Shown here in pieces: positions 3,432 through 14,546 of a DNA stretch of 40,956 bases (positions are counted from its first letter, which is position 1; each line of letters starts with the position of its first letter). Below the pieces are notes generated by a model. The model had not been told where the DNA came from. It saw only the letters and a program-made list of their open reading frames with translations, and did no database searches. This stretch comes from Candidatus Endomicrobium labiotermitis. GTDB lineage: Bacteria > Elusimicrobiota > Endomicrobiia > Endomicrobiales > Endomicrobiaceae. The position numbers were made by a program, and so were the translations under genes. The stretch lies in contig WRFE01000007.1 in assembly GCA_009778965.1 (NCBI GenBank), positions 1 through 40,956 of the forward strand, given 5' to 3'.

Positions 3432-3459
3432 AATTGTTTTTTTGCATAGAGGGGTAAAA

Positions 3460-4065
3460 ATGATTTTGAAGAACAAATTAAATATTAAGAATCAGGTTGA
3501 ACTAAATAAATCCGAAGAAAAAATCAGCAAGCAAAAAGCAAAGCTGTTTTTTGATAGCGGTAAAATTAATAAAGTAAAAGTCGGGACTTTTGCCGGTCTC
3601 TGCCAGATACACAAGTTTTTATTCGGCAAAATTTACGATTTTGCGGGGAAAATACGAGAGGTAAATATTTCCAAGGGTAATTTTCGCTTTGCGCCGCTGA
3701 TGTATCTTAAACAATCGCTTAAAAATATAGATAAAATGCCGCAAAAGACTTTTGACGAAATTATAGAAAAATATGTTGAAATGAATATTGCCCATCCGTT
3801 CCGTGAAGGCAATGGTCGCGCAACAAGAATTTGGCTGGATTTAATACTCAAAAAGGAATTGAAAAAAGTTATTGATTGGAACAATGTTGACAAGTCCGAC
3901 TATCTTTCAGCAATGAAGCGCAGCCCCATAAAAGATGTTGAGATAAAGCAACTTCTTAAAAATGCCCTTACAGACAAAATAAACGAACGTGAACTTTTTA
4001 TGAAGGGTATAGATGTAAGCTATTACTACGAAGGCTATGACGAATTTAAGATAGAAGATTTATAA
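3460..4065 (+). CDS. fic: Fic protein adenylyltransferase, class III (C-terminal inhibitory motif)
   Basis: Fic enzymes transfer AMP from ATP to hydroxyl side chains of target proteins. The 201-residue protein has the full catalytic motif HPFREGNGR at residues 112-120. Near the C-terminus it has S187-YYY-E191-G192, which matches the (S/T)xxxE(G/N) inhibitory motif. Placement of that motif after the Fic core, and the short length, fit class III proteins such as the Neisseria meningitidis Fic, which self-inhibits by oligomerisation. GAGGGG just upstream is the likely ribosome site; a TTG six codons earlier is a less likely start. The next gene follows 17 bases downstream. The target protein cannot be deduced from sequence. 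Confidence 0.85.
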
Positions 4066-4496: not shown

Positions 4497-4637
4497 ATGC
4501 TGACTCTGATAACCATAATAATTTTGTTTAAGTTAATCGGCAATATGGTATCAACACCGGTATTAATAACTCTAATCCTTTTAACTTGTGCTTTGATTGG
4601 ATTTATGCTTTGGAAACATAAAAATAGGGGTAATTAA
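4497..4637 (+). CDS. Small two-helix membrane protein, 46 aa
   Basis: A short open frame between the 136-residue protein and the second Fic gene. It encodes two hydrophobic stretches (about residues 2-16 and 21-39) separated by a short polar turn, and ends in a basic tail KHKNRGN. Its stop codon overlaps the next ATG as TAATG, a typical coupling arrangement, and the AGGGG in its last codons (4626-4630) doubles as the ribosome site of the next gene. There is no clear ribosome site for itself, which lowers confidence. I do not recognise a family. Confidence 0.45.
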   Translation: MLTLITIIILFKLIGNMVSTPVLITLILLTCALIGFMLWKHKNRGN

Positions 4638-5704
4638 TGAGCCAAATAAAAAACTTTGAAGAGTATAAAAAACTTGGCGAACCCGATAAAGAGAAAAGAG
4701 CAGAAAACTGGCGAATCGCTATCGGACTTCAACAAGTCGATGGTCTTACACCGTCAAAACACCTAATTAAAATTGCAAAAGAAAATATTGAAGGCAAAAT
4801 TTCAATTGACGATGCGGGAAAGCAGATAGCTCGGTATTATAAAGAAAATCCGGCAAAAACTACAAAAGAAAAAGAGAATAAAGAAGCCGATGAAGTTTCT
4901 TCACGCGCTGCTAAATTATTGAGCAATAATACTTTCGTGTTTAGTCCCGCGGAATACATTGCAATTCATAAGTTTTTATTTATTGATATATTGGATTCTA
5001 TAACAGCGGGAAAAATCCGCGAATATGATATAAGCAAAGACGAACCCATATTAAATTGGGATTCTGTGAGCTATGGCAGAGCAAACAGCATTAGAGAAAC
5101 GCTTGACTATGATTTTGCCCAAGAAAAGGCATTTAGTTATAAAGGTCTGACCAAACAAGAAAAGGTAGAACATATAGTAAAATTTATGTCAGGTATTTGG
5201 CAAATACACCCATTTGGCGAAGGCAACACACGTACAACAGCGGTATTTATAATTAAATATCTACGGACTCTCGGTTTCAAGGCGAATAATGATTTGTTTG
5301 AGGAAAATTCTCTATATTTTCGTAATGCGTTGGTTAGGGCTAATTATAATAATCTTGAAAATGGTATTTATGAAACAATGGAATATCTAAACAGATTTTT
5401 TGGAAATCTGTTGTTGGGAGAAAAAAACGTACTAAATAACCGCGATATGCAAATCAAAATTGGTGACATTGAAAACAAATGCCCAGAAAACACCCAGAAA
5501 ACGCCCAGAAAACATCCAGAAAACGCCCAGAAAATTTTAGATGCTCTGGCAATTAATCCATCCGCAAGCCGCCAAGAATTAGCCAAAACTCTTAGAATGA
5601 CCGAAGATAGGGTAAAGTGGAACATAAATAAACTTCGTGAGGCTGGCACAATCCGGCGTGTTGGACCGGACAAAGGCGGGCATTGGGAAATTATAAAGAA
5701 CTAA
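4637..5704 (+). CDS. fic: Fic adenylyltransferase with VbhA-like N-terminus and C-terminal winged helix
   Basis: A 355-residue protein in three parts. Residues 20-70 (GLQQVDGLTPS, then IEGKISIDDA and YY) resemble the antitoxin VbhA-like region often fused to Fic enzymes; the acidic residue of VDG (D35) is the best candidate for the inhibitory acid, but the canonical Ser/Thr four places before it is Leu. The Fic core has HPFGEGNTR at 191-199 (T in place of the second G, as in other N-type members). Residues about 285-355 look like a winged helix (SRQELAKTLRMTEDRVKWNI, then LREAGTIRRVG), suggesting DNA binding. Core and winged helix are joined by a linker encoded by five 11-bp tandem repeats (5481-5534). 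Confidence 0.85.
   Translation: MSQIKNFEEYKKLGEPDKEKRAENWRIAIGLQQVDGLTPSKHLIKIAKENIEGKISIDDAGKQIARYYKENPAKTTKEKENKEADEVSSRAAKLLSNNTFVFSPAEYIAIHKFLFIDILDSITAGKIREYDISKDEPILNWDSVSYGRANSIRETLDYDFAQEKAFSYKGLTKQEKVEHIVKFMSGIWQIHPFGEGNTRTTAVFIIKYLRTLGFKANNDLFEENSLYFRNALVRANYNNLENGIYETMEYLNRFFGNLLLGEKNVLNNRDMQIKIGDIENKCPENTQKTPRKHPENAQKILDALAINPSASRQELAKTLRMTEDRVKWNINKLREAGTIRRVGPDKGGHWEIIKN
5481..5534 (+). repeat. 11-bp tandem repeat, about five units, inside the Fic gene
   Basis: Units are gcccagaaaac, acccagaaaac, gcccagaaaac, atccagaaaac and gcccagaaaa. Because 11 is not a multiple of 3, the encoded linker cycles through frames, and gain or loss of one unit would shift the frame before the winged-helix domain. 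Confidence 0.9.
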
Positions 5705-5811: not shown

Positions 5812-7356
5812 ATGGATAATAAACAAAAACAGGCTTTATGGAAAACGGCTGATCAGCTTCGTTCTAATATGGATGCGGCGGAATACAAACATGTTGTGTT
5901 AGGTTTAATATTTTTAAAATACATTTCAGATTCTTTTGAATTTCAGTGCGCAAGTCTAAAAAAACGCTTTCAAAATCCGCAAGACCAATATTTTTTAAGC
6001 GAACCATCCGGTATAGAATACGCGCTTGAAGATAAAGATTATTACATAGCAGACAATGTCTTTTGGGTACCAAATAATGCCCGTTGGCAATACATACGCA
6101 ACAATGCCAAGCAAACAGACATAGGCAAAATTATAGATGATGCTATGTATCAAATAGAGAAAGAAAATCCAAAGCTTAAAAACATATTAAACAAAACTTA
6201 TGCAAGGCTTTCGCTTCCGCCTGCAAAACTTGGCGACTTAATAGATACGGTTTCAACAATAGGTTTTAACGAAGATTTTTCAAAATCAAAAGATACTTTA
6301 GGTGAAATTTATGAATATTTCTTAGGAAAATTCGCCAGCGCCGAAGGCAAACGCGGCGGTCAATATTATACGCCTGCTTCCATAGTAAAAACTTTAGTTG
6401 CAATAATGGCTCCGCATAAAGGAAGGGTTTACGACCCGTGCTGCGGTTCCGGCGGTATGTTTGTTCAGTCAGAACTTTTCGTAAAATCGCATCAGGGTGA
6501 TATTTCCAATATATCTATTTATGGGCAAGAATCAAACCCTACAACCTGGCGCTTGGCTGCTATGAATCTAGCCATACGCGGCATAGGTTTTGATTTAGGC
6601 AAAGAAGCAGCTGACACTTTTACAAAAGATCAACATCCGGCATTAAAGGCAGACTATATTTTAGCCAATCCGCCGTTTAATGTTTCCGATTGGGGCGGTG
6701 ATAAACTGCAAGACGACTCACGTTGGAAATACGGCATTCCGCCTGCAGGTAATGCTAACTACGCATGGATACAGCATATGATATCGCATTTAGCGCCAAC
6801 CGGTATTGCCGGCATTGTGCTTGCCAACGGTTCTATGAGTTCCAACACAAGCGGCGAAGGGGAAATAAGAAAAAAACTTATAGAAGCAGACATCGTGGAA
6901 TGTATGGTAGCGCTTCCGGCACAACTGTTTTTTAATACACAAATACCAGCGTGCTTATGGTTTTTAAGAAAGCAAAAGAAAAGAAAAAATGAAATTTTGT
7001 TTATAGACGCCCGCAATATCGGCTTTATGGCAGACAGAGTTTTAAGAGAATTTACAGATAAAGATACTTCTAAAATAGCAGACACTTACCATACTTGGCG
7101 TTTAGATGAAGACGCGCCTAAAGATAAGCAATACAAAGACATAAAAGGCTTTTGTAAATCCGCAAAACTTGAAGAAGTAAAAAATAACGATTATGTACTT
7201 ACACCGGGCAGATATGTAGGGACCGAAGAAGCAGAAGAAGATTCGGAGCCGTTTGAACAAAAATTTGAAAGACTTACAAAAGAATTATTTGCCCAAATGG
7301 AAGAAAGCAAAAAACTTGATGAAAAAATAAAAGATAATCTAAAAAAAGTGTTTTAA
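5812..7356 (+). CDS. hsdM: Type I restriction-modification system, methyltransferase subunit HsdM
   Basis: HsdM transfers a methyl group from S-adenosylmethionine to adenine, as part of M2S and R2M2S complexes. The 514-residue protein has the N-terminal helical HsdM domain ([21 protein letters not shown]), the SAM-binding motif [10 protein letters not shown] starting at D208, and the catalytic NPPF motif at 286-289. Length is normal for the family. AGAAGG at 5801-5806 is the ribosome site. It opens a run of eight closely spaced genes up to about 15.1 kb. Confidence 0.95.
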
Positions 7357-7357
7357 T

Positions 7358-7876
7358 ATGGAAAAATTGATTAAGTATTTGTTTTCTAAGCAGCATCCTT
7401 TTGATATTTTTTTTGTAGGTGCAGGTGTTATAATAGCATTAATCTTGTTTAATAATAAGCCTAATTCTATTTGGTATATATTTGCTTCTGTGTGTATTTT
7501 TTTCGGCATTGCATTTTTTCTTAGGAAAACATATGAGTATGCATATGTTAAAGTAAAATTTAAAAATATATATAATACGTTTTCTGAAGATGAAAAATTT
7601 TATATAAAATGGGTAGTGTTAGATAATACATTAGTTTTCTCATCAATATATGAGAAGAATCCGCCTTCGTTATTATCTTTAACAGAAAAAGGTTTGTGTA
7701 AACAAAAAGACGATAAAACTTTTATTTTTGATAAAGTAAAAATTGATGCAATAAGGCATAGTGTTTTGAAAGAAATAGAGAATAATAGAAAAGTCAGAGA
7801 ACAAAAGAAAATTGAAAGAAAAAAGAAGAGAGAAGAAAAGCTTAAAAAAGAAAATATAAATAAAGAGGGAAAATGA
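7358..7876 (+). CDS. Two-TM membrane protein, possibly SieB-like
   Basis: A 172-residue protein with two membrane helices (about residues 15-31 and 38-55), a cytoplasmic domain, and a very basic K/E/R-rich coiled tail (about 140-172). The middle portion (FSEDEKFYIKWVV, then LLSLTEKGLC) is loosely reminiscent of superinfection-exclusion SieB-type proteins, but the match is weak and I would not assign function on it. It begins one base after the hsdM stop and overlaps the HEPN gene by 4 bases (ATGA), so it belongs to the same operon. Confidence 0.5.
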   Translation: MEKLIKYLFSKQHPFDIFFVGAGVIIALILFNNKPNSIWYIFASVCIFFGIAFFLRKTYEYAYVKVKFKNIYNTFSEDEKFYIKWVVLDNTLVFSSIYEKNPPSLLSLTEKGLCKQKDDKTFIFDKVKIDAIRHSVLKEIENNRKVREQKKIERKKKREEKLKKENINKEGK

Positions 7877-8286
7877 AACTGGATTTATCAAGTTTAAAAA
7901 AAGCTGTATCATCATTAAACAGTGCATTAGAAATGGCAGAAGTTTTAATACAAGGTAAAAATGATAAACAAGATGATTTAGTCCGCGCGGGCGTAATACA
8001 AAACTTTGAATTTACTTACGAACTTTGCTGGAAATTTATGAAACGTTGGTTAGAAGTAAATTATAACCCTGACATTGACGGTTTAACCCGTAAAGAACTT
8101 TTTCGTATAGCTTTTGAAAATAAGCTTATTAAAGATGTTGAAATTTGGCTTAGCTATAACGATGCAAGAAACAAAACTTCTCACACTTATGATAATGAAA
8201 AAGCAAGCAATGTTTTTGAAGTTTCTAAAGAATTTATAACAGACGCAAAAGATTTACTTGCAACATTAGAATCTAAAAATGACTAA
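7873..8286 (+). CDS. hepT: HepT-like HEPN protein (nucleotidyltransferase substrate-binding family)
   Basis: A 137-residue helical protein of the HI0074/HepT family. It carries R99-NKTS-H104-T-Y106, an exact RX4HXY motif. In characterised HepT/MntA systems the Arg and His form the HEPN RNase site, and the Tyr is adenylylated by the MntA nucleotidyltransferase to neutralise it. Other family features are FEFTYELCWKFMKRWL near 45-60 and LIKDVEIWLSYNDARN before the motif. It overlaps the preceding gene by 4 bases and the next gene by 8 bases. The next gene begins with the matching nucleotidyltransferase, so the toxin-antitoxin pair is complete but its second half is fused to HsdS. Toxicity is inferred. 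Confidence 0.8.
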   Translation: MKLDLSSLKKAVSSLNSALEMAEVLIQGKNDKQDDLVRAGVIQNFEFTYELCWKFMKRWLEVNYNPDIDGLTRKELFRIAFENKLIKDVEIWLSYNDARNKTSHTYDNEKASNVFEVSKEFITDAKDLLATLESKND

Positions 8287-9763
8287 ACCTATAGACTTAC
8301 GAGACGATTATTTTAAAATATTAAAAACTATCTTGACTGAGCATTTAGAAGGCTTAAATGCCAGAGTATATACTTTTGGTTCGCGCGCCAAATGGACTGC
8401 CAAAGACACGGCAGATATTGATTTAGCTTTAGATGTTAAAAACATACCTCAAAAACTTATAAGAAATTTAACCGATGCCTTTGAAGAAAGCAACATTCCA
8501 TACAAAGTAGATATTGTGGATTTAAATGCAATAGATGACAGTTTTAGAAATAATATAAAAAATGACTTGGTGGAAATTTTGTATGACTGGGAATATTTAC
8601 AATTAAGTGAAGTTGCATATTATGGAACAGATAAGACATTTGTAGGTGATGTTATGCGTAATTCATATGTATCAACAGATAATATGTTGCCTAACAAACA
8701 AGGAGTTTTTATTGCCGAAAGTATGCCTAAAAGCGGTAAAGTATGTGTTTATAAAAAAGAAGATATTTTAGTTTCTAATATACGCCCATACTTTAAAAAA
8801 ATATGGTTAGCCAATATTGATGGGACTTGTTCTGCTGATGTGTTAGTTTTTAAAACAAATAAAATTGATAAAAAGCTTTTATATTATATACTTTCCAATG
8901 ATGTTTTTTTTGATTATACCATGCAAGGCAGTAAAGGTACTAAAATGCCAAGAGGTGATAAAGATCAGATAATGTTATATCCAATATCATTCCCCTATTA
9001 TGCTGATGAACAAAAAAAGATAGCGGATGTTTTGGGAAGTTTGGATGATAAAATAGAATTGTTGCAGAAACAGAATAAAACTTTAGAAGGTCTTGCCAAA
9101 GCTATTTTCAAAAGCTGGTTTGTGGATTTTGAACCTTTTGGAGGAATTATTCCAGATAATTGGCGTTCGGGAAAATTGTCAGAAATTCTTGATACGATTG
9201 AAAGTGGTTCTCGTCCAAAGGGTGGCGCAGAAAATTTTGGAATTCCAAGTATTGGAGCAGAAAATATAGAAGGTATCGGAATATATGATTACACAAAAGA
9301 AAAATATGTTAATGAAGATTACTTTAACAGCTTAAAAAAAGGAAAAGTAAAATCCGGCGATGTATTGCTTTATAAAGATGGTGCATATACTGGAAAAGTG
9401 TCAATGTCTTTAGGAGACTTTCCTCATAAAGTATGTGCTGTAAACGAGCATGTTTTTATTTTACGAGTAAATGAGCAATTGTCTTCGCAGTTTTTTTTAT
9501 ATTTATTCCTTGCGCAAGATAACATTAAGGAAATTACGTCAACTCTTGCGTCTGCAAAAGCAGCCCAACCAGGATTAAATCAAGCAGATGTGAACTCTGT
9601 GCCGTTGATAATACCAGATATAGCGAGTATTATAAAATTTAATAATATCGTTTCTCCATTGATGTATGCGATTGTAGCCAATGCTACGCAGGCGAGAACT
9701 ATTGCTTCAATTAGAGATTATTTATTGCCAAAACTAATTTCCGGTAAGGTAAGGGTGCAATAA
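8279..9763 (+). CDS. hsdS: MntA-like nucleotidyltransferase fused to type I specificity subunit HsdS
   Basis: A 494-residue fusion. Residues 1-102 are a minimal nucleotidyltransferase: G34-S35-R36 followed by D46-I-D48, and a third acidic site at D78 (KVDIVD), so the catalytic set looks intact. From about residue 103 (WEYLQLSEVA) it is HsdS: first target recognition domain to about 240, a central conserved helix (DEQKKIADVLGSLDDKIELL, with FKSWFVDFEPF at 277-287), a second recognition domain from about 292, and a distal conserved helix ending LLPKLISGKV. HsdS sets the DNA sequence recognised by HsdM and HsdR. There is no stop or ribosome site at the junction, and the linker is almost absent. 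Free MntA proteins adenylylate their HEPN partner, encoded immediately upstream with an 8-base overlap. A plain HsdS is usually near 400 residues, so the extra 100 are accounted for by the added domain. Confidence 0.88.
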   Translation: MTKPIDLRDDYFKILKTILTEHLEGLNARVYTFGSRAKWTAKDTADIDLALDVKNIPQKLIRNLTDAFEESNIPYKVDIVDLNAIDDSFRNNIKNDLVEILYDWEYLQLSEVAYYGTDKTFVGDVMRNSYVSTDNMLPNKQGVFIAESMPKSGKVCVYKKEDILVSNIRPYFKKIWLANIDGTCSADVLVFKTNKIDKKLLYYILSNDVFFDYTMQGSKGTKMPRGDKDQIMLYPISFPYYADEQKKIADVLGSLDDKIELLQKQNKTLEGLAKAIFKSWFVDFEPFGGIIPDNWRSGKLSEILDTIESGSRPKGGAENFGIPSIGAENIEGIGIYDYTKEKYVNEDYFNSLKKGKVKSGDVLLYKDGAYTGKVSMSLGDFPHKVCAVNEHVFILRVNEQLSSQFFLYLFLAQDNIKEITSTLASAKAAQPGLNQADVNSVPLIIPDIASIIKFNNIVSPLMYAIVANATQARTIASIRDYLLPKLISGKVRVQ

Positions 9764-10444
9764 ATGCTTACTAAAAAATGGATTGGTTGTGTTTGTTTTC
9801 TTATAGCAGTAATTTTATATATTTGTGCATATACACTAAATGGACATGCATTTTACTATGACTTGTTTATTGGCATTGCTTCAAGTGCTGTTGTCGTTTT
9901 ATTGGTTTCCATTGTTGAACTGACAGATATGTATAATAAAAATAAAAAGATATTAATTAAAGGTAATAACACTATCTATTATCTCATAGAACAAAACAAG
10001 TTTAATACTAATGACTATATTCACAATAACAAAATTATCACAGAGGCTTTTTATAATTACTTTTCTTCAGAGATTTATAAAAATATAGTATCTATATTAT
10101 ATGTAGATGAGAATTTATTTATATACCCTAATAAAAACAAGATGCTAAAGAGTTACAAAAAGTATCTTGAATCATTGATAAATACAGTAAAAATATTAGA
10201 AACTTCTTATAGAATTGACTTTAATGAAAATAAAATCGCTAAGATAGAGAAAAATTTAGATACGAGAGCAGCTATATTTGCACAGGAAATGAGTGATAGG
10301 TTAAATGAAGGCTTGAAATTATCGGATGAAGTAATTACAAATATAAAAAAATTTAATAAAGACTCTTTTTCGAAAAAAGAATTAAAAGATTTTGATGAAT
10401 TTGTAGATTATATAAGTGTAGGATTTGAAAAATTAAAAAACTAA
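9764..10444 (+). CDS. Two-TM membrane protein of unknown function in the hsd operon
   Basis: A 226-residue protein whose ATG directly follows the hsdS stop codon. Two membrane helices lie at about residues 5-24 and 33-52, followed by a cytoplasmic helical domain of about 170 residues with many Lys, Glu and Asn. I do not recognise the family. Base composition is more AT-rich than the hsd genes, like its 172-residue membrane neighbour, which suggests both were added to the operon separately. An abortive-infection effector anchored to the membrane is one possibility, from position only. Confidence 0.55.
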   Translation: MLTKKWIGCVCFLIAVILYICAYTLNGHAFYYDLFIGIASSAVVVLLVSIVELTDMYNKNKKILIKGNNTIYYLIEQNKFNTNDYIHNNKIITEAFYNYFSSEIYKNIVSILYVDENLFIYPNKNKMLKSYKKYLESLINTVKILETSYRIDFNENKIAKIEKNLDTRAAIFAQEMSDRLNEGLKLSDEVITNIKKFNKDSFSKKELKDFDEFVDYISVGFEKLKN

Positions 10445-10474: not shown

Positions 10475-11464
10475 ATGGCAATGAAAAGAAATAGAAAAAT
10501 CTTCTCTATAAAAAATACTCTAATTCAAAAATCTTCAGAAGCTGCTTTGGCGGCGGTACAGATATATAACAATCCATTAATAACTTTTAAAACTGAGTCT
10601 TTTATTGTACTTATGATAATTGCGTGGACATATTTACTACATGCATTTTATCGTAACAAGGGAGTGGAATATAGATATATAGATGATGTAAAAAGTACAG
10701 ATAAAAGAAAAATTTATCAAAAAACAAAATATGGTGAATATAAGCATTGGGGATTAGAAAAGTGTTTAGAAATAGAGATTTCTCCAATATCTAAAACAGC
10801 AACCAGAAACTTGTTTTTTCTTATAGGATTACGCCATAAAATAGAACACCAAATGATTCCAGTTATAGATGAAGTTTTTAGTGCAAGATTGCAAGCTTGT
10901 TGCCTAAATTACAATAAATATGTGACTGATTTGTTTGGGGAGGAATGGGCTATAGGAAAACATCTATTGTTTTCTCTCCAGTTCTCAAAATTAAGTAAAG
11001 AACAAAAAGACACACTTGATGAATATAACCTTCCAGACAACATAAAAAGATATGTGAAAACCTTTGATAATGGACTAACTGCAGAAGAATATAACAGTGA
11101 AGAATATGCTACAAGGTACCTCTTTGTACCAAAAAATGCAAATCGGGTTGGACAAGCGGACCGAGTTATAGAATTTGTAAAAGAAAGTTCTGAGATGGCT
11201 AAAGGATTAAATAAAGAATATGTTATGATTAAAGAAACGGAAAAAGAAAAATTCTTACCTGGACAAATTGTTCTAAAGATGATAGGGTTGGGATTTGCCA
11301 AGTTTAACATGGATAAATTTGTCAGACTTTGGCAAGATAAAGATGCTAAAAATCCTAAGTACAACTTTGGCGGTAGAGTAGCAGGAAAGACTTGGTACTG
11401 GTACAAACCATGGGTGGATTTTGTAGAAGAGCATTGTAAGAAAAATAGTTCAATTTATAAATAA
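10475..11464 (+). CDS. DUF3644 domain protein (HEPN-like)
   Basis: A 329-residue protein matching DUF3644: an N-terminal block SSEAALAAVQIYNNPLITFK then SFIVLMIIAWTYLLHAFY, a KHWGLEKCLE block, and GLRHKIEH at 118-125. The last contains R120-x4-H125, the HEPN ribonuclease signature; DUF3644 has been placed among HEPN-like families associated with defence. The C-terminal 70 residues (QIVLKMIGLGFAKFNMDKFVRLW, then TWYWYKPWVDFV) look like a small winged-helix-type domain. It lies between hsdS and hsdR and ends 4 bases before hsdR, so this operon has two separate HEPN-type candidates. No strong ribosome site is visible. RNase activity is inferred. Confidence 0.75.
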   Translation: MAMKRNRKIFSIKNTLIQKSSEAALAAVQIYNNPLITFKTESFIVLMIIAWTYLLHAFYRNKGVEYRYIDDVKSTDKRKIYQKTKYGEYKHWGLEKCLEIEISPISKTATRNLFFLIGLRHKIEHQMIPVIDEVFSARLQACCLNYNKYVTDLFGEEWAIGKHLLFSLQFSKLSKEQKDTLDEYNLPDNIKRYVKTFDNGLTAEEYNSEEYATRYLFVPKNANRVGQADRVIEFVKESSEMAKGLNKEYVMIKETEKEKFLPGQIVLKMIGLGFAKFNMDKFVRLWQDKDAKNPKYNFGGRVAGKTWYWYKPWVDFVEEHCKKNSSIYK

Positions 11465-11468
11465 ACTT

Positions 11469-14400
11469 ATGTTTAAAATAACTGAAAACACATTAGAACA
11501 AGCTTGTATGCAATGGTTTGAAGATATCGGATACCAAACATTTTTTGGTCCTGATGTTTTGCCTGATACCAATACTCCTTTGCGTGCTGACATTAAAGAT
11601 GTTGTTTTAAAAGATAACTTAAAGGCATCGTTAAAAAACATTAACCCGCAAATTGCCGACAATATTTTAAATGAAGCTTTTGATATTATATCTAAGCCCA
11701 ATGAAACATCCATTATTGCTAATAATAAAAAGTTTTATACTTATTTTACCGAAGGCGTAAAAGTCTTGCACAAAAACGACAACGGAGCAGATACGGCAAC
11801 AATAGTAAAACTTTTTGATTTTGAAAATGTTAAAAATAATGAGTTTATAGCGATTAATCAGTTTACCATAGCAGGTAAACAAAACAGACGCCCTGACATA
11901 ATTGTATTTATTAACGGCTTGCCTTTAGCCGTAATAGAGCTTAAAAATCCTGCAGAACCTAAAGCTGACATTCATAACGCATTCAACCAGATACAAACAT
12001 ATAAAAACGATATAGAAGACTTGTTTTATTATAACTTGGCTTGCGTTGTTGCAGACGGCGCGAAAGCAAGGTTAGGTTCTTTAACAGGCAGCATGGAATG
12101 GTTTTTGCCATGGCGTACCATTGCTGGAGAAAGGGAAGAAAATAAAGGCAGGTATGAAGAAGAAGTATTAATAAAAGGTTTTTTTAATAAAGAATTTATT
12201 TTAGACTATATACGCTACTATGTAATATTTGAAGACAGTGGTAAAGATACTATTAAAAAAATTGCAGGTTATCATCAATTTCACGCTGTGCGTAAAGCTG
12301 TAAAAACTACCATACAAGCGTTAAACAAAAAAGACGGTAAAGCAGGCGTTGTGTGGCACACGCAAGGCGCGGGGAAAAGCATTTCTATGTTATGTTTTGC
12401 AAGCAAAATAATGCAAGCGCCTGAAATGGAAAATCCTACAATAGTAGTTGTTACTGACAGGAATGATTTGGACACACAATTGTTCGATGAGTTTGCCAAA
12501 GGAAATAGAAGTTTATCGCCTATACCGGTTGACAGCAGAGAAGATTTGCAAGAAAAATTGACTAATAAGCCGTCCGGCGGCGTATTTTTTACAACCATAC
12601 AGAAGTTTTATTTAGAAGATAATGAAACAACATTCCCTGTTTTATCAAACCGCAAAAACATAGTAGTTATATCGGACGAAGCGCACAGAAGCCATTACGG
12701 ATTTAATGCCAAAATATCTGCAAAAGGGAATATAACATACGGTTATGCAAAATACTTGCGTGATGCATTGCCCAATGCTTGTTTTATAGGGTTTACAGGC
12801 ACGCCTATAGAAACAACAGATAAAGATACCCGCGCGGTTTTTGGCGATTATATAGATATTTACGATATAGTAGATGCCATAAATGACGGCGCGACAGTGC
12901 CGATTTATTATGAAGCGCGGCAAATACCTATAAACACCAAAGACGGCAAGATGCTTGAAATAGACGAACAGATAGAAGAAGTAACAGAAGGTATGGATGA
13001 TAAGGAAAAAGTTAAAACCAGATGGGCAACGGTTGAAGCCTTAATTGATACGGAGCCAAGGCTTAAAACTTTAGCAAAAGACCTTATAGAGCACTTTGAA
13101 GATAGGTGCAGCGTAATAGACGGCAAAGGTTTAATAGTTTGTATAAGCCGTAAAGTAGCGGTTCATTTATACGAAGAAATTGTAAAGCTAAGACCAACTT
13201 GGCACAGCAATGACCCACAAAAAGGCGCAATTAAAGTAGTTATGACAGGTTCTGCAAGCGATCCTTTAAACTTCCAACCGCATTTACATAATAATTTAGT
13301 AAAAAAAGATTTGGAAAAACGCTTCAAAAAATTTGAAGATCCGCTAAAGCTTGTTATTGTTTGCGATATGTGGCTTACAGGGTTTAATGTGCCGTCTTTG
13401 CATACAATGTATATTGATAAGCCTATGAAAGGGCATAGCTTGATGCAGGCGATAGCCAGAGTTAACAGAGTGTTTAGAGATAAACAGGCAGGTCTTATTG
13501 TTGACTATATAGGCATAGCCAGAAATTTAGAAAAAGCGGTTGCAAATTATACGACAAACGGCGGAAGAGGTAATGTAGAAGTTGATATAGAACGCGCTTA
13601 TGAAGAGCTTTTAAAACATATAGAAGTATGCAGAGAGTGTCTTGATAAATTTGATTACAGTGAATTTAAAACAAAAGCTTTTGAATTACTTCCTAATGCT
13701 ATGGATTATATATTATCTAAACAGAAAAGAGATGTTTTTTGCGATTCTGCTTTAAATGCGACAAAAGCATATGGATTGTGTAAGGGTAAAAAAGAGACAA
13801 GAATATATAACGATGAGTTGGCATTTTTTCAGTATATACGTTCTATGCTTATAAAATCTGAATATGGCGATGGCGGAAAAAAATCTACAGACCCTCAGGT
13901 GCAAAGCGTAATAAAAGCTATTATTGACAATGCTATTATAAGCGATAAAGTCGTTGATGTGTTTAAAAGCGTCGGATTAGAAAAGCCTGATATATCGCTT
14001 ATATCTGACGAATTCTTAGAACGCGTTAAAAATATAGAACAGAAAAATTTGGCGGTAGAACTGTTAGAGCGTTTAATAAACGGCGAGATTAAAACTAAGT
14101 TTAGGCTAAATATTGCTTTGCAGCAAAAATTCTCAGATTTGTTAAAAAATGTAATTACAAAATATAACAACGGCACTATTGAAACGGCGCAGGTAATAGA
14201 AGAATTAATTAACACATCTAAAGATATAAATGCGGCCATAAAAGAAGGCGCGGAACTTGGACTTAGCGATGCGGAAAAAGCTTTTTATGACGCGATTATA
14301 AAAAATGAGGCTTCTGTGCGTAGTCTTGGCAATGACACATTAAAACAAATAGCCAGGGAATTAACAGAGTATTTAAGAAAATCTACAAAGGTGGATTGGG

Positions 14401-14546
14401 CTAAAAGAGATAATGTTAGAGCTGCTATAAGAATTGCGATTAAAGGCATTTTAAGAAAATATAAGTATCCGCCGGATGAAGAACTAGGTGCGACTGAACG
14501 TGTTTTAGAACAAGCCGAAAAAATAACTGATGAGATGTTGAAGTAA
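11469..14546 (+). CDS. hsdR: Type I restriction endonuclease subunit HsdR
   Basis: HsdR is the ATP-dependent DNA translocase and nuclease of the type I complex. The 1025-residue protein has a PD-(D/E)xK nuclease site at D143 ... E157-L-K159, a Walker A motif QGAGKS at 299-304, a DEAH box at 403-406 and GFTGTP shortly after it, in the expected order. The later helicase motif region (CDMWLTGFNVPSLHTMYIDKP, then AIARVNR) is also intact. Length is normal. It follows the DUF3644 gene by 4 bases, and the HNH gene follows 15 bases after it. All catalytic motifs are present, so the restriction system looks functional. Confidence 0.95.
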   Translation: MFKITENTLEQACMQWFEDIGYQTFFGPDVLPDTNTPLRADIKDVVLKDNLKASLKNINPQIADNILNEAFDIISKPNETSIIANNKKFYTYFTEGVKVLHKNDNGADTATIVKLFDFENVKNNEFIAINQFTIAGKQNRRPDIIVFINGLPLAVIELKNPAEPKADIHNAFNQIQTYKNDIEDLFYYNLACVVADGAKARLGSLTGSMEWFLPWRTIAGEREENKGRYEEEVLIKGFFNKEFILDYIRYYVIFEDSGKDTIKKIAGYHQFHAVRKAVKTTIQALNKKDGKAGVVWHTQGAGKSISMLCFASKIMQAPEMENPTIVVVTDRNDLDTQLFDEFAKGNRSLSPIPVDSREDLQEKLTNKPSGGVFFTTIQKFYLEDNETTFPVLSNRKNIVVISDEAHRSHYGFNAKISAKGNITYGYAKYLRDALPNACFIGFTGTPIETTDKDTRAVFGDYIDIYDIVDAINDGATVPIYYEARQIPINTKDGKMLEIDEQIEEVTEGMDDKEKVKTRWATVEALIDTEPRLKTLAKDLIEHFEDRCSVIDGKGLIVCISRKVAVHLYEEIVKLRPTWHSNDPQKGAIKVVMTGSASDPLNFQPHLHNNLVKKDLEKRFKKFEDPLKLVIVCDMWLTGFNVPSLHTMYIDKPMKGHSLMQAIARVNRVFRDKQAGLIVDYIGIARNLEKAVANYTTNGGRGNVEVDIERAYEELLKHIEVCRECLDKFDYSEFKTKAFELLPNAMDYILSKQKRDVFCDSALNATKAYGLCKGKKETRIYNDELAFFQYIRSMLIKSEYGDGGKKSTDPQVQSVIKAIIDNAIISDKVVDVFKSVGLEKPDISLISDEFLERVKNIEQKNLAVELLERLINGEIKTKFRLNIALQQKFSDLLKNVITKYNNGTIETAQVIEELINTSKDINAAIKEGAELGLSDAEKAFYDAIIKNEASVRSLGNDTLKQIARELTEYLRKSTKVDWAKRDNVRAAIRIAIKGILRKYKYPPDEELGATERVLEQAEKITDEMLK

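Follow-up and report, generated by a model that had tools for sequence, protein, structure and literature searches.

A minimal nucleotidyltransferase of a HEPN toxin pair is fused to the type I restriction specificity subunit HsdS and may act as an antitoxin tied to it

To our knowledge, guards of restriction enzymes have been well worked out only in PrrC, PARIS, and related cases. In the PrrC/EcoprrI system, an anticodon nuclease is silenced by a type Ic restriction-modification (R-M) enzyme (PMC3710099, PMC3874165), and a guard role for HEPN proteins associated with R-M systems was proposed by Anantharaman et al. 2013 (PMC3710099). Genes embedded in hsd operons are known from TgvAB of Vibrio cholerae (PMC11411939), the rlo genes of Campylobacter (PMC2610378), and prrC (PMC3874165). 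Another HEPN RNase system is the class I (type VII) HEPN/MNT toxin-antitoxin pair, defined by Yao et al. 2020 (PMC7641770) as an RX4HXY motif in a HEPN-clan protein beside GSX10DXD in a nucleotidyltransferase (NTase)-clan domain and explicitly including PF08780 pairs. In this class, the minimal nucleotidyltransferase (MNT) inactivates the RNase by putting AMP on the Tyr of RX4HXY (Yao et al. 2020, PMC7641770). The Legionella pair likewise consists of a toxin and an adenylylating antitoxin; its MNT has no helix alpha4, the C-terminal helix with which the MntA proteins of Shewanella and Aphanizomenon enter the HEPN cleft, yet it is functional (PMC11586414).

We analyzed a stretch of 40,956 nucleotides (contig WRFE01000007.1, hereafter the window) from Candidatus Endomicrobium labiotermitis of the phylum Elusimicrobiota, in which a HEPN/NTase pair lies inside a type I R-M operon. 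The operon contains the following features.

5812-7356, + strand: hsdM, type I N6-adenine methyltransferase subunit, 514 aa (PF02384, 386.6 bits; HsdM_N, 86.9; PADLOC MTase_I, 691 bits)
7358-7876, + strand: 172-aa protein of unknown family, no Pfam, NCBIfam, or PADLOC match
7873-8286, + strand: predicted HEPN RNase toxin of the HI0074 family, 137 aa (PF08780, 138 bits; TIGR01987, 98.7 bits)
8279-8590, + strand: HI0073-like MNT, residues 1 to about 102 of the fusion (PF18765, 41.4 bits)
8591-9763, + strand: HsdS part of the fusion, with the first target recognition domain (TRD1), the central conserved helix (LDDKIELLQKQNKTLEGLAKAIFKSWFVDFEP), TRD2, and the C-terminal conserved helix
9764-10444, + strand: 226-aa protein with a hydrophobic N-terminus and no known family, starting one base past the hsdS stop
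10475-11464, + strand: DUF3644 protein, PADLOC PDC-S19 (PF12358, 186.9 bits; PDLC04948, 463.7 bits)
11469-14546, + strand: hsdR, type I restriction/translocase subunit, 1025 aa (TIGR00348, 627 bits; PADLOC REase_I, 1122 bits)

All of these genes lie on the + strand in the order hsdM, 172-aa gene, HEPN, NTase-hsdS, 226-aa gene, DUF3644, and hsdR, with gaps of 0-30 bases, and one operon holds the full type I gene set of hsdM, a two-TRD hsdS, and hsdR. Scans for promoters and terminators did no better than on shuffled sequence. The 172-aa protein is hydrophobic in its N-terminal half, as judged by eye, and has a Lys/Glu-rich tail; the stop codon of its gene overlaps the HEPN start (ATGA). We ruled it out as a conserved third component of the cassette, as it is absent from three fused operons found elsewhere (L044, L049, and L204). 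The HEPN/NTase-HsdS genes are thus flanked on both sides (7358-7876 and 9764-10444) by family-less proteins with hydrophobic N-termini. The DUF3644 protein, whose gene lies between hsdS and hsdR, carries RX4H at residues 120-125 and belongs to a family that Anantharaman et al. 2013 (PMC3710099) assign to the HEPN superfamily, which brings the number of predicted HEPN RNases in the operon to two. Upstream of the operon are a DUF3990 gene (1250-1732) and two Fic-domain genes (3442-4065 and 4637-5704), the second of which matches the PADLOC candidate PDC-S72. The genome also has a second, standalone HI0074/NTase pair that is unlinked to hsd (G000:C2:47806-48512, L052).

The preliminary description of this locus had reported two overlapping genes, a HEPN toxin and an antitoxin-like NTase of about 102 residues at the N-terminus of HsdS, and this architecture held up in every part. 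The open reading frames are 7873-8286 (137 aa) and 8279-9763 (494 aa), sharing 8 bases (8279-8286). RX4HXY was found at residues 99-106 of the HEPN protein (RNKTSHTY; R99, H104, and Y106), GSX10DXD at residues 34-48 of the fusion (GSRAKWTAKDTADID), and the third Asp at position 78 in VDIVD; in composition-preserving shuffles, the two motif sets had p values of 0.0012 and 0.0006, respectively. Pfam placed Polbeta at residues 29-96 and Methylase_S (PF01420) from residue 103, with no stop codon between the two domains of the 494-aa frame, and the PADLOC Specificity_I model matched the HsdS part at 223 bits. The chance of a 494-codon open frame at the composition of the window is about 3e-17.

By its motifs, the pair falls within class I HEPN/MNT as delimited by Yao et al. 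2020 (PMC7641770). The preliminary description called the two HepT-like and MntA-like, but the nearest relatives are HI0074/HI0073 rather than strict HepT/MntA. The HEPN protein scored well above the HI0074 family cutoffs (TIGR01987, 98.7 versus 55.8 bits; PF08780, 138 versus 31.8 bits) and below that of PF01934 (19.2 versus 23.5 bits), and we prefer the HI0074/HI0073 naming because the NTase reached 35.2 bits against a cutoff of 60 for the NCBIfam MntA equivalog (NF047752). Among solved structures, the HEPN protein was closest to HI0074 (1JOG, E=1e-18) and to the HEPN toxin of Legionella (8XDJ, E=7e-14), and the fused NTase was closest to HI0073 (1NO5, E=2e-10). Q43 and E46 of the HEPN protein correspond in alignment to Q44 and E47, two Mg-site residues that are essential in Legionella HEPN (Jin et al. 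2024, PMC11586414). An AlphaFold model of the fusion had a confident HsdS fold but rendered the NTase poorly (pLDDT 30-54), as almost no NTase rows were present in the alignment.

As in the type VII class I systems (Shewanella HepT/MntA, Legionella pneumophila HEPN-MNT, and HI0074/HI0073, 1JOG/1NO5), an RX4HXY HEPN adjoins a GSX10DXD NTase, which is minimal, at about 100 aa, like the Legionella MNT. Unlike in those systems, the putative antitoxin is an N-terminal part of HsdS instead of a free protein, the toxin gene precedes that of the antitoxin, and the pair sits in an hsd operon. The locus also resembles PrrC/EcoprrI in that a type I R-M operon encodes a HEPN-superfamily RNase whose proposed silencer is the R-M complex. 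However, PrrC is an ABC-ATPase fused to HEPN and is held by protein contact, whereas the window HEPN is a small HI0074 protein of 137 aa matching PF08780 only, and its silencing would be enzymatic, through the HsdS-fused NTase. TgvAB and the rlo genes are likewise accessory defense genes within hsd operon intervals, but they act alone and none is fused to an hsd subunit in the papers cited here.

We searched for the NTase across 341 genomes of the phylum, using open-frame length as the test of fusion, and also in plasmids. Four further fused NTase-HsdS genes were found, three in genomes of the phylum (G231/L049, 523 aa; G248/L204, 485 aa; G176/L216, 466 aa) and one on plasmid pZMOB01 of Zymomonas mobilis ATCC 10988 (L044, 527 aa), a complete circular record in which hsdM, HEPN, NTase-hsdS, and hsdR each abut the next. 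The preliminary description had asked whether such a fusion always follows a HepT gene and had named a stop codon or frameshift between NTase and HsdS as one result that would speak against it. All five fused genes directly followed a HEPN gene with intact RX4HXY, and none had a frameshift or stop between the two domains. An origin of the fusion as a frameshift, assembly, or metagenome-assembled genome (MAG) artifact was ruled out by the independent fused genes in other genomes and on the complete plasmid. Among 73 HEPN-NTase pairs, the NTase frame measured 466-527 aa from start to stop in the 5 fused pairs, whereas none of the remaining 68 exceeded 117 aa; HsdS is therefore the only fusion partner found among these pairs. 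The 68 short frames also rule out a general tendency of these NTases to fuse. For the 57 pairs of the phylum, all four embedded in hsd operons were fused, versus none of the 53 others to any neighbor (naive hypergeometric p = 2.5e-6, which is overstated because G248 and G176 share an origin). The catalytic motifs were intact in 14/14 hsd-embedded pairs examined.

No hsd-embedded HEPN/NTase was found in phages, nor in viral contigs, although the latter yielded HsdS relatives and 6 HEPN loci. A contig scan with the fusion N-terminus, for which the patterns were too narrow, matched only one Roizmanbacteria NTase-HEPN pair. One contig of the viral collection (L150, 4711-6915) carries a 735-aa HsdS frame whose first approximately 370 residues matched nothing in Pfam and may represent a further N-terminal fusion to HsdS. 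At another locus (L058, G026:C155, 1331-3019), a HEPN-NTase pair is followed by a second, divergent HEPN gene.

To place the fusions, we built trees on concatenated HEPN and NTase and tested one fused clade by AU. The window pair grouped with solo pairs of its own family, the Zymomonas and Acetobacter pairs grouped together, and G248 and G176 grouped with the unfused solo pair of G260. The G231 pair lay elsewhere, at a position that is uncertain because its branch is long. On this tree, the fused state requires at least four changes, and a single ancient fusion was rejected (AU, p=3e-7; 8e-6 without the long-branch rows; 2e-5 with G248/G176 added). The NTase-HsdS fusion appears to have arisen at least four separate times, an estimate drawn from short proteins and one densely sampled phylum and assuming a shared history of HEPN and NTase.

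On Acetobacter plasmids, the same cassette is present as five genes, hsdM-HEPN-NTase-hsdS-hsdR, in which NTase and hsdS abut, overlap by up to 8 bases, or lie up to about 20 bases apart. HsdM is 91% identical between Zymomonas (fused) and Acetobacter (unfused), and the fused and unfused forms are therefore two states of a single system. In seven Acetobacter plasmids (L045, L071, and L074-L078), nucleotide identity was 82-89% over NTase codons 1-80, 31-50% from NTase codon 83 through TRD1, and 87-97% in the central HsdS helix, and it dropped again in TRD2. In Acetobacter, the TRD1 cassette thus passes from conserved to variable sequence at about codon 83 of the preceding NTase gene rather than at hsdS. 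This identity drop indicates that the NTase tail changes together with TRD1, perhaps because the two are in physical contact, or perhaps only because the recombining block ends there.

The interval between hsdM and hsdS behaved as an effector slot, its content differing in most of the 30 hsdM loci that we retrieved in the phylum. Its occupants were YhcG/DUF1016 nucleases (L189, L190, and L193), ORF6N (L186 and L192), Schlafen AlbA_2 (L187, and by similarity L197 and L202), TIR (L195), PIN (L198), and an AAA/AbiEii-like ATPase (L179), and among the 30 loci, HEPN/NTase was the only one seen fused to HsdS. The slot proteins of L175, L177, L178, L180, and L181-L184 matched no Pfam family convincingly and could be new effectors.

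We consider it probable that a type I R-M system captured a class I HEPN/MNT (type VII) cassette between hsdM and hsdS, that the antitoxin became fused to the HsdS N-terminus, and that toxin silencing came to need HsdS. The RNase toxicity of HEPN and the adenylylation of its Tyr would be as in the characterized relatives; that the cell depends on HsdS to keep the toxin silent, and what would trigger it, is purely inference. The HsdS-borne NTase would transfer AMP to Tyr106 of HEPN and would probably also bind HEPN. In the fusion, HsdS occupies the position of alpha4 and may thus adjoin the HEPN-binding face. Newly made toxin would be silent only for as long as the cell makes and folds HsdS. 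If HsdS were lost or the NTase blocked, by loss of the plasmid or operon, by a broken hsdS, or perhaps by a phage antirestriction protein on the M2S core, new HEPN would remain unmodified and cut RNA. The outcome would be addiction to the R-M system and, possibly, a second-line, PrrC-like defense. More tentatively, HsdS may have been turned repeatedly into a conditional, S-subunit-tethered antitoxin that AMPylates HEPN only with the restriction core present, with HEPN as a guard that fires once HsdS is removed or blocked by phage or plasmid loss, a fuller version that we regard as possible but short of an even prospect.

Such coupling and guarding had been suggested in the preliminary description. 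Repeated independent fusion to the same partner supports the coupling of HsdS and toxin, but the guard part is weakened by the chemistry of AMPylation and by internal starts. AMPylation is covalent, so loss of HsdS alone would not reactivate toxin that is already modified. Without a de-AMPylating enzyme, the trigger is more likely to be a failure to modify fresh toxin than an immediate release, and a phage protein that inhibits M2S would not necessarily block the NTase. In-frame starts near the HsdS N-terminus are present in two fused genes (TTG at codon 101 after GGTGG in the window and ATG at codon 112 in L049), so free HsdS may also be made. HsdS dependence is, moreover, not universal to the cassette, since the Acetobacter NTase is separate and one A. 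pomorum plasmid (L072) keeps HEPN and NTase despite a broken hsdS.

That plasmid also bears on the view that the fusion serves addiction only, linking post-segregational killing to the R-M locus and thereby preventing loss or breakage of hsdS or loss of the plasmid, with no phage sensing. On the L072 plasmid, an IS701-like element interrupts hsdS, and hsdR was not seen, but hsdM, HEPN, and NTase have been kept. Decay of this kind should be costly where the NTase belongs to HsdS, and the fusion would prevent it. The cassette occurs on plasmids, and type I R-M systems by themselves are poor at post-segregational killing, both of which favor this view. On the other hand, the same slot in related operons holds typical defense effectors (TIR, Schlafen AlbA_2, YhcG, PIN, and AAA/AbiEii-like) rather than addiction modules alone, and we find it a serious but somewhat doubtful account of the fusion. 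A neutral fusion, in which the stop was lost between overlapping neighbors and HsdS became a passive C-terminal tail of an unchanged NTase, is unlikely. A single mutation could produce it where the two genes abut or share 1-8 bases, as they do in Acetobacter, and the linkers are very short; however, at least four separate origins and the confinement of fusion to hsd-embedded pairs of the phylum (4/4 versus 0/53) argue against it. That the pair instead acts on R-M, with HEPN as a substrate-binding subunit (as HI0074 was originally annotated) and the NTase, physically in the R-M core and varying in its tail with TRD1 in Acetobacter, adenylylating HsdM, HsdS, HsdR, or another target to switch restriction, is very unlikely, as all embedded HEPNs retain the RNase R and H and the acceptor Tyr, and characterized PF08780/PF01934 pairs with these motifs are toxin-antitoxin systems (PMC7641770, PMC11586414).

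The fusion has been present in databases under another name. The Zymomonas protein (WP_014466389.1) is annotated only as subunit S, and the PADLOC HsdS model PDLC03138 (Specificity_I, 485 positions) is labeled as a type I specificity subunit only, with no mention of an NTase. Its positions from about 2 to 100 match free and fused HI0073-like NTases, with 101 bits for the Zymomonas NTase, 66 bits for the free NTase of Legionella adelaidensis, and 56.5 bits for the window NTase (positions 8-92). The model was therefore evidently built from NTase-HsdS fusions. Free NTases of toxin-antitoxin pairs match it as well and would be miscalled as specificity subunits. Our search of largely open-access literature found no description of an NTase or antitoxin joined to HsdS. 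What is new is the combination of a type VII toxin-antitoxin pair with an R-M-embedded HEPN, where the fusion and its convergence are findings and the guard function is a proposal.

If silencing of the toxin indeed needs HsdS, an antitoxin built into HsdS would be a second, enzymatic way to link an RNase toxin to R-M integrity. It would account for the presence of HEPN/MNT genes in hsd operons and help explain how such operons resist decay. The guard proposal of Anantharaman et al. 2013 becomes directly testable, with small proteins and the natural contrast between Zymomonas (fused) and Acetobacter (unfused). The separate fusions suggest that, time and again, bacteria have made control of the toxin depend on restriction machinery that is intact.
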